From Halomonas sp. (GTDB taxonomy: Bacteria; Pseudomonadota; Gammaproteobacteria; Pseudomonadales; Halomonadaceae), in NCBI RefSeq assembly GCF_030457605.1, contig NZ_JAKDUR010000001.1:124001-188000 (forward strand): a stretch of DNA of 64,000 nt, in the 5' to 3' direction. The translations under genes were made by a program, and so were the position numbers. The notes under the pieces are model-generated. The model saw only the letters and a program-made list of their open reading frames with translations. It had not been told where the DNA came from and did not search any database. Shown piece by piece: positions 29,156-31,830 of the stretch (positions within the stretch are counted from its first letter, which is position 1; every line of letters begins with the position of its first letter).

Positions 29156-30028
29156 TCAGCTGTCCTTGTCGCCGGTGGGCGTCTCCCGGTCTGTGGCCTC
29201 GGTACCCCGGGGGGCTTTACCGGGCTGGCGTTGGCCGCAGTCGCTGACGGCTTCATCAAGGACGCTGGCAAAGTCCTCGTCGCGCAGCTCGGGTAAATGG
29301 CCGTTGCGGTAGCTGGCGTCAAGCCGGGTCAGCGTGGCGCACATTTGCTCGATGCGCCCGTCGACGGCGTGCATGTGGTCGAGCATGGCCTGCATCGAGC
29401 GGGCCACCGGGTCGGGCATGTCCTGGCTGACGCCATAGGCATCAAAGCCGAACTTCTGACGCATGGCTTCGCGCCGATCGGGGTCCACGTCAAGCGACCG
29501 TTGTGCATCCGGTTCGGCACGTTTGACGACCTTGCCGGGAATCCCGACCACCGTGGCGTCGGCCGGAACATCCTTGGTGACCACGGCGTTGGAACCGACC
29601 TTGACGCCGGCCTCCAGGGTGAGCGGGCCGAGTATCTTGGCGCCGGCGCCGACAATCACGCCGTCGCCCAGGGTGGGGTGGCGCTTGCCTTTATTCCAGC
29701 TGGTGCCGCCAAGCGTAACGCCGTGGTAGAGCGTGACGTCGTCGCCGATCAGCGCGGTTTCGCCAATCACCACGCCCATGCCGTGATCAATGAAAAAGCG
29801 TCGGCCGATGGTGGCGCCGGGATGAATTTCGATGCCGGTCAAAAACCGCGAAAACGTCGACAGCGTGCGTGCCAGCCACTTGGCATCCTTGCCCCACAGC
29901 CAGTGGTTGAAACGATGCAGCAGCAGCGCGTGCAGGCCGGGGTAGTTGGTCAGCACTTCAAAAAAATTGCGTGCGGCCGGGTCGCGGATAAACACGCTGT
30001 TGATGTCTTCACGCAGGCGTTCAAACAT
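29156..30028 (-). CDS. cysE: Serine O-acetyltransferase CysE (EpsC type)
   Basis: Acetylates serine with acetyl-CoA, committing it to cysteine synthesis. The 290 residues have the short N-terminal helical domain of the EpsC/SAT form, then the left-handed beta-helix of hexapeptide repeats ([65 protein letters not shown]). The catalytic His of DHG and HGVTLGG are present. After about residue 175 comes an unusual polar tail of more than 100 residues that is not part of the fold. Lies between trmJ and iscR, supplying the substrate for the desulfurase next door. Confidence 0.92.
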
Positions 30029-30039
30029 GCGGCTTTCCT

Positions 30040-30831
30040 TCAGTGTGTGGGCGTCCGGGGACCGGAATTATCAGCGCGGCGGCGGGGTGGCTTTATAGTG
30101 GCGGCCTTGTCTGTCGCCGTGAGTATGCCGCGCAGGATGTTGAGTTCGATCTGTTCCGGGCGGGCGCGCATGTACAGCCGGCGCAGGCGCGCCATCAGCT
30201 GGCGCGGCTTGTCCGGATCGTGAAATTCGATCGTGGTCAGGGTGTGCTCAAGGTGTGTAAAGTAGCGCTCCAGGTCGGCGTGAGAGGCCAGACGCTCGTC
30301 GCTGGTGCCGTCTGCACCGGCGGGCGCTGCCTGCTGCTCAAGCCATGCCATGCGGCATTCGTAGGTCACTACCTGCACGGCTGCGGCCAGGTTGAGCGAG
30401 CTAAAGTCGGCATTGGTAGGAATATGCACATGGGCGTGGCAGCGGTGCAGCTCCTCGTTGGTCAGGCCGCTGTCTTCGCGGCCGAATACCAGCGCGACCC
30501 GAGCGTTGTCGTGGCGGCACTCTTCGGGCAGGCGGTGGGCAAGCTCCCGGGGGGAAAGCATTGGCCAGGGCAACGTGCGCGAGCGCGCACTGGCGCCGAC
30601 CACAAAGGTGCAGTCGGCCACGGCTTCATCCAGCGTCTGGCTGACACGGGCGTTGTGTAACAGGTGATCGGCACCCGAGGCGCGGGAAATGCTCTCCTGG
30701 GTGATGATCTCGCCGCGCGGGGCGACCAGCCCCAGGTCGGAAAGCCCCATGTTGTGCATGGCGCGGGCAACACCGCCGATATTGCCGGGGTGGCTGGTGC
30801 CGATAAGGACAGTACGAAGGCGCTCAAGCAT
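30040..30831 (-). CDS. trmJ: tRNA Cm32/Um32 methyltransferase TrmJ
   Basis: SPOUT-class 2'-O-methyltransferase acting at position 32 of the tRNA anticodon loop. The 263 residues show the three SPOUT motifs: [17 protein letters not shown] near the N-terminus, [19 protein letters not shown], and [18 protein letters not shown] in the knot. The C-terminal 80 residues are a basic, helical extension. Divergent from suhB, as in E. coli and Pseudomonas; cysE follows 11 nt after the stop. Confidence 0.95.
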
Positions 30832-30887: not shown

Positions 30888-31035
30888 GGTGTTCAAGGGG
30901 GCACAAGTTTAGCATGACTACGTGGCACCCTTGCACGTGCTCTGCTAGAATCGCCGCCCAACGCGGCTACCGCTATCGCCGCCGCTTCGTTCTTTAACAG
31001 TCCTGTCTTTAACCTTACCGTCACAAGGCTCGCCC

Positions 31036-31830
31036 ATGAATCCGATGGTCCAGTTCACGCTGCGCGCAACGCGCAAGGCCGCTGATCAATTTTTACGTAT
31101 CCGCGAACGTATCGAGAACGCTCACGATGCCGCCAACCTTGAACACCTGCTGGCCGAAACCGCGAGCAAGGCCGAGGCCACTATCGTCCAGCAGCTTGAG
31201 CGTGGTTATCCCCAGCACGGCGTTGCCGGTCGTTTTACGTCGCACCGAGCCGGCGAAGGGGACGGCCGCGATACCGTCTGGAAAATCGAACCGATCCACG
31301 GCTACTCCAGCCTCTCGGTAGCCGGCGCGGACTTTGCGCTGTCGGTGGTATGTCTGGTTAAAGGCAGGCCTGAGCACGCGGTGATCGTCTGCCCCTTCTC
31401 CGACGATGAGTACATCGCCAGCCGCGGCAGCGGCGCTCAGCATAACGACAAGCGCATGCGCGTCAGCAAGCCCACCGCACTAGCGGGTACGCGTATCGCC
31501 ATGAGCCTGCCGCCCCTTGACCTGCGCAGCCGCCATTTGCCCGCCTACCTCACATTGACCCAACAGCTCGCCCCGAGCGCGGATACGCTGATTGCCACCG
31601 GCAGCGGCCTGCTGGATATTTGTGAAGTGGCCGCCGGGCGCGTGAGTAGTGCCTTTGTGCTGGGGCTTGAAGAACAGGACATGCACGCTGGCATGCTGTT
31701 TTTGAAAGAAGCCGGCGCATTGACCGGGACCCCGGATGGCCGCCCCGATATCAAGGCAGACGGCATGTTGATGGCCGCCGGCCCCAGGCTTTACAAGGCG
31801 CTGGTCAGGCAGCTGACGCCGCACTTTTAA
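31036..31830 (+). CDS. suhB: SuhB-family protein with a degenerate catalytic site
   Basis: Inositol-monophosphatase-fold protein; E. coli SuhB is a Nus-complex factor in rRNA transcription. The 264 residues align over their full length (NPMVQFTLRATRKA start; LDICEVAAGRV; HAGMLFLKEAGAL). The metal-binding residues are largely lost: the VTxxD Asp is gone (LLAETASKAE), the EE of TEESG is replaced (FTSHRAG), and the hallmark DPLDGT reads EPIHGY. Only the C-terminal Asp (EEQDMHAG) remains. Phosphatase activity is therefore doubtful, while a structural antitermination role fits. Divergent from trmJ; followed by a strong terminator. Confidence 0.85.
   Translation: MNPMVQFTLRATRKAADQFLRIRERIENAHDAANLEHLLAETASKAEATIVQQLERGYPQHGVAGRFTSHRAGEGDGRDTVWKIEPIHGYSSLSVAGADFALSVVCLVKGRPEHAVIVCPFSDDEYIASRGSGAQHNDKRMRVSKPTALAGTRIAMSLPPLDLRSRHLPAYLTLTQQLAPSADTLIATGSGLLDICEVAAGRVSSAFVLGLEEQDMHAGMLFLKEAGALTGTPDGRPDIKADGMLMAAGPRLYKALVRQLTPHF

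Follow-up and report, generated by a model that had tools for sequence, protein, structure and literature searches.

The suhB gene of the window (the whole 64-kb stretch of DNA analysed) encodes a SuhB protein in which most of the metal ligands of inositol monophosphatase (IMPase) are replaced and which has very probably lost IMPase catalysis. The best reading of the sequence data, and one that we consider highly probable, is that the protein represents a natural pseudo-enzyme kept for its role in the Nus transcription complex. The earlier note on this DNA had proposed that only the RNA/transcription role was selected, and the clade-wide loss of the site, purifying selection, the boxA upstream of the gene and the conserved lysine K251 all speak for that proposal.

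Identity and Descent of suhB

The open reading frame begins with ATG and has no internal stop (Table 1). Its product is a member of PF00459 (84.5 bits; cut-off 27), and its best matches in the PDB are the SuhB proteins of Pseudomonas (E 2e-42) and E. coli (E 1.5e-33). The top NCBIfam model was NF008027 (PRK10757, inositol-1-monophosphatase) with 126 bits, below the curated cut-off of 332 bits; that cut-off is passed by 5 of 146 genomes, and intact relatives mostly fall below it too. The divergent gene trmJ adjoined the degenerate suhB at all 180 loci compared, each with 1.5 to 5 kb of flank (153/153 in the family and 27/27 in other families). On the tree with CysQ as the outgroup, the degenerate proteins all formed one group inside the SuhB clade (support 99), clearly separated from both CysQ and a second IMPase group. 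Thus, the synteny with trmJ, the best matches and the nesting within the SuhB clade identify the product as SuhB by descent. On the far side of trmJ, cysE (29156-30028) lies between trmJ and iscR in the window, whereas in E. coli trmJ adjoins iscR.

Table 1. Features of the suhB region, with positions in the window.
Feature	Position	Strand	Basis
trmJ, divergent neighbour of suhB	30040..30831	-	Same arrangement in E. coli K-12
Promoter-like GTGGCA-18-TAGAAT, TG before the second hexamer, 5' of boxA	30922..30951	+	Consensus match only
boxA GTTCTTTAACA, suhB 5' UTR	30989..30999	+	Perfect GYTCTTTAANA match (PMC5725501)
suhB CDS, 264 aa, catalytically degenerate SuhB	31036..31830	+	ORF, PF00459, NCBIfam, PDB matches, alignment
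A43 for D44 of intact SuhB	31162..31164	+	Alignment
R66-F67 for E67-E68 (metal ligand and neighbour)	31231..31236	+	Alignment
EPIHGY (residues 85-90) for DPLDGT: D84 to E, D87 to H, T89 to Y	31288..31305	+	ORF, alignment
R140-x-R142 (E. coli R139, R141), SuhB-specific arginines	31453..31461	+	Alignment
D215 (E. coli D212), sole metal-ligand aspartate left	31678..31680	+	Alignment
K254 (E. coli K251), NusA-AR2 contact residue	31795..31797	+	Alignment; role from PMC6614801

The protein resembles E. coli SuhB (PDB 6ib7, 6tqo) in its trmJ neighbour, its length, the 5' UTR boxA, the N-terminal MxPM, the conserved arginine positions and the C-terminal K251 for NusA-AR2. It differs in that E. coli SuhB keeps E67, D84, D87, T89, D212 and D44, whereas the window protein keeps D212 only and has alanine for R184. 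Pseudomonas-type SuhB (PDB 8wdq, 9j90), the best match by sequence in the PDB, aligned over 263 residues, likewise differs in keeping the DPLDGT site. CysQ and the second IMPase-family protein, recognizable by its DPIDGTVN motif, share PF00459 with SuhB; however, they keep the catalytic residues and are without the SuhB N-terminus, R139/R141, K251 and the upstream boxA.

The Catalytic Site

At positions E67, D84, D87, T89 and D212 (E. coli SuhB numbering), all 39 intact reference proteins (38 from the order plus E. coli SuhB) read EDDTD in the alignment, a string found in none of the 60 degenerate proteins; the window SuhB reads R, E, H, Y and D. The alignment confirmed the replacements that the earlier note had read by eye, namely EPIHGY for DPLDGT, FTSHRAG for TEESG (E67 to R66 and E68 to F67) and the absence of the VTxxD aspartate (D44 to A43). 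Its statement that "most" metal ligands are replaced was likewise apt, and "all" would be wrong, as D212 is kept as D215. In addition, W211 is replaced by Q214, and G88 is kept as G89.

Of the 81 columns conserved in intact SuhB, eight are catalytic (44, 67, 68, 84, 87, 89, 211, and 212); retention in the degenerate set was 13% for these and 62% for the others (permutation p 2e-5). The catalytic loss is therefore selective, and chance is excluded. The same eight columns were kept at 99% in the intact IMPase paralogue. The contrast in retention is confined to the eight catalytic residues: non-catalytic SuhB-specific columns and enzyme-core columns, taken as whole classes, did not differ (0.58 vs 0.54), which tells against the pseudo-enzyme reading. 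The structure predicted for the window protein together with 30 close relatives (mean pLDDT 42.7, pTM 0.34) was too poor for use.

Distribution of the Loss

The suhB gene was present in all 201 sampled Halomonadaceae genomes, which cover 24 genera; the loci of the nearest relatives (L034-L113) come from Vreelandella, Halomonas, and Billgrantia. The site was lost in each Halomonadaceae sequence read, the deepest genera included, in which the motif reads, for example, VNPLVGE or VHPAHGW. In the rest of the order, SuhB was intact in most families and degenerate in seven (f6, f7, f20, f27, f38, f39, and f45). Of these, f38 is intermediate, D87 being kept by some members (PIDS, PVDS, PLDG). A single degenerate SuhB was found in family f40, in genome G316, the family being otherwise intact. 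The earlier note had guessed at a loss in "this lineage" and suggested a comparison across the clade; the loss is indeed clade-wide, and its extent, one whole family, seven others and G316, is wider than had been guessed. We infer the label "Oceanospirillales-type" for the families other than Halomonadaceae.

On the RpoB tree, f1, f6, f7, f20, f27, f38, and f39 formed one group (SH-aLRT 95), and the addition of f45 to this group was not rejected (AU p 0.60). The tree and the test together suggest that the site was lost once or twice in this part of the order, besides the loss in G316. Three separate losses, at which the RpoB tree hints, were considered and set aside, given that one clade including f45 was not rejected; one origin plus G316 is equally possible.

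Two lineages were unusual. Genome G316 (f40; L234, L297) stands on a very long branch of the RpoB tree (1.26); its RpoB is enlarged and its NusA divergent (41% identity). The genomes of f15 (G050, G301, and G269; L175, L235) are 1.6-2.2 Mb in size, with RpoB near the outgroup; a SuhB orthologue was not found in these three genomes, only another IMPase-type gene.

A Second, Intact IMPase Gene

Besides the degenerate SuhB and CysQ, most complete Halomonadaceae genomes encode an intact IMPase-family protein with the motifs DPIDGTVN(F/Y)A and WDxxA. Its orthologues formed one group with support 100 across f1, f6, f7, f20, f27, f38, f39, and f45. A profile of this paralogue, run over 146 genomes of the order, scored at least 354 bits in 26 genomes, each of which has a degenerate SuhB; no other gene exceeded 224 bits, which is the level of intact SuhB itself. 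The paralogue was present in 26 of the 33 sampled genomes with a degenerate SuhB and in none with an intact one. This co-occurrence suggests a division of labour between two genes. As an association clustered on the tree, it reflects few independent events.

Neither the genome of the window itself (79.6% complete) nor the complete genome G009 yielded the paralogue: the former showed just two CysQ-like genes besides SuhB, the latter CysQ and a different IMPase-like gene. It was absent from six more of the sampled degenerate genomes (G239, G262, G250, G286, G341, and G316). The division of labour is therefore not universal. The second intact IMPase gene that the earlier note advised looking for exists in most genomes of the family. 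The two CysQ-like genes of the window's genome (L001, L002) lie on contigs C7 and C40, the C7 copy beside a cysNC-like gene. An IMPase-like gene of G009 (L388, G009:C1:191800-193600), next to a gene of ABC-transporter type, contains DPLDGTNNF; about 22 positions that neither of its two profile matches covers hint at an internal deletion.

Retained SuhB Residues and NusA

R139 and R141 were kept in 60/60 degenerate proteins. At the K251 position, lysine or arginine occurred in 59 of the 60, and the L254 position was mostly V, L or I. In E. coli, the loss of K251 and L254 lowers the affinity for NusA-AR2 more than a thousand-fold (PMC6614801). NusA of the window's genome (G000) is full to the end of AR2 (residues 1-494 of 495), and it reaches the AR2 end in the other relatives sampled, except in G316. 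Two substitutions in the window SuhB, E. coli R184 to A187 and L254 to V257, count against a pseudo-enzyme kept for the Nus role.

boxA and the Probable Autoregulation of suhB

In E. coli, a boxA in the suhB 5' UTR recruits the Nus complex and represses suhB; the gamma-proteobacterial consensus is GYTCTTTAANA, and boxA autoregulation is already known for suhB homologues from many genera (PMC5725501). The boxA upstream of suhB ends 37 nt before the ATG and is the only match to the consensus in the window. A perfect boxA was found upstream of 146/153 Halomonadaceae suhB loci (L004-L156), mostly at -32 to -48; as some of these loci are near-copies, the count over distinct 60-nt upstream sequences was 107/121. 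The 80 named loci, searched on both strands, gave 80 matches, one per locus, in the suhB upstream region. No perfect boxA was found upstream of the paralogue (0/18) or of cysQ (0/12). At degenerate loci outside Halomonadaceae, it was present in just 5/27.

Unlike the window, the intact suhB upstream regions sampled in the order were mostly without a perfect boxA. The motif preceded suhB at 3/56 intact loci (L157-L206, L298-L307, and L267, E. coli included) vs 146/153 degenerate Halomonadaceae loci, so that loss of the SuhB enzyme goes with a higher frequency of the consensus autoregulation site. Genus g24 has a variant boxA, GTTCCTTAACA. In complete relatives, pairs of boxA lie 1.8-2.3 kb apart, a spacing to be expected of an rrn leader and spacer. 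Patterns requiring GCTCTTTAACA, which cannot match the suhB boxA GTTCTTTAACA, gave no boxA in the window's own genome. rRNA operons are often absent from incomplete assemblies.

Selection and Alternative Explanations

The dN/dS of suhB between the window and 14 relatives was 0.09-0.21, a range that resembles those of trmJ, cysE, iscR, iscS, and secF of the same genomes and thus indicates purifying selection and no gene decay. In 79 sequences of the same length from Vreelandella, Halomonas, and Billgrantia, E85, P86, H88, and G89 (window numbering) were invariant, and D215 was kept in 78. Since the EP-x-HG motif recurs in many independent genomes, an assembly artefact, which would have undone the earlier note's reading, is excluded. 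The window's genome is incomplete (79.6%, 121 contigs), which might favour an error or a decaying pseudogene; however, the frame is open in the family genomes sampled, the new motif is invariant, dN/dS is at the level of the neighbours and the boxA is conserved, and we dismiss this explanation as having a negligible probability.

The strictness of EPxHG in the nearest genera exceeds that of free decay and may reflect a structural role or a new pocket. The site could accordingly have been remodelled, with E85-P86-x-H88-G89-Y90 and D215 forming a new metal or phosphate site for another activity or for sensing; the invariance just described goes beyond plain decay, and E, H, and D can each serve as a metal ligand. 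Yet the corresponding residues elsewhere are unrelated (VNPLVGE, VHPAHGW, IQILDSQ, IDAIQGQ), so no new site is shared by the clade, and E67, T89, and D44 are gone; we regard remodelling as improbable. A narrower version, rated slightly lower still, is that in Halomonadaceae an E85-H88-D215 pocket might bind metal, nucleotide or RNA phosphate and provide a new input to the Nus complex, such as sensing in salt adaptation. Residual metal binding or changed chemistry is possible because D215 and the acidic E85 remain, and the retained D215 and the conservative D84-to-E change might also allow some IMPase activity, weak or altered, that has a different metal requirement. Catalysis by the IMPase fold depends on exactly E67-, D87-, and T89-type residues. 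These three were lost together, with R and Y put into the site, and we therefore give such activity very little chance, even though SuhB of E. coli is normally an IMPase (PMC4807359).

The pseudo-enzyme reading agrees with laboratory work on E. coli, in which IMPase activity is dispensable (PMC4807359, PMC6614801); the D87N allele that the earlier note named is unmentioned in those two papers. SuhB variants without IMPase activity resemble the window protein in that growth tolerates the loss of catalysis (PMC4807359, PMC6614801), but they are engineered, whereas the window-type site was wholly replaced during the evolution of several families.

Under the pseudo-enzyme reading, the catalytic site would have been freed in an ancestor of several Oceanospirillales-type families, although the order of events is our reconstruction. 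The enzyme and the transcription factor would be encoded by separate genes, as suggested by the separate intact IMPase of one orthologous group in most genomes with a degenerate SuhB, and the Nus role would retain SuhB. The Nus function of the degenerate protein is most likely that of the E. coli protein: SuhB would join the complex of boxA, NusA, NusB, NusE, and NusG on nascent rRNA, partly via its C-terminal lysine on NusA-AR2, would there aid rRNA synthesis and folding, and would repress its own mRNA through the 5' UTR boxA.

Implications

No report of a natural loss of the catalytic site in SuhB was found in the literature searched, from which subscription papers were mostly excluded, and novelty is thus unproven. 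The question whether the enzyme activity of SuhB matters to its Nus role, or the converse, has so far been judged from E. coli mutants. The degenerate proteins offer a natural experiment across about eight families, which have lost the enzyme site but retain trmJ as neighbour and the NusA contact; in Halomonadaceae, the autoregulation site is kept too. They represent a clean non-enzyme SuhB for structural and in vivo work, and R139, R141, K251, and the N-terminal helix may be among the parts that the transcription role requires. The annotation "inositol monophosphatase" is misleading for degenerate SuhB, and, given the co-occurring intact paralogue, a division of labour between two genes can be put to the test.
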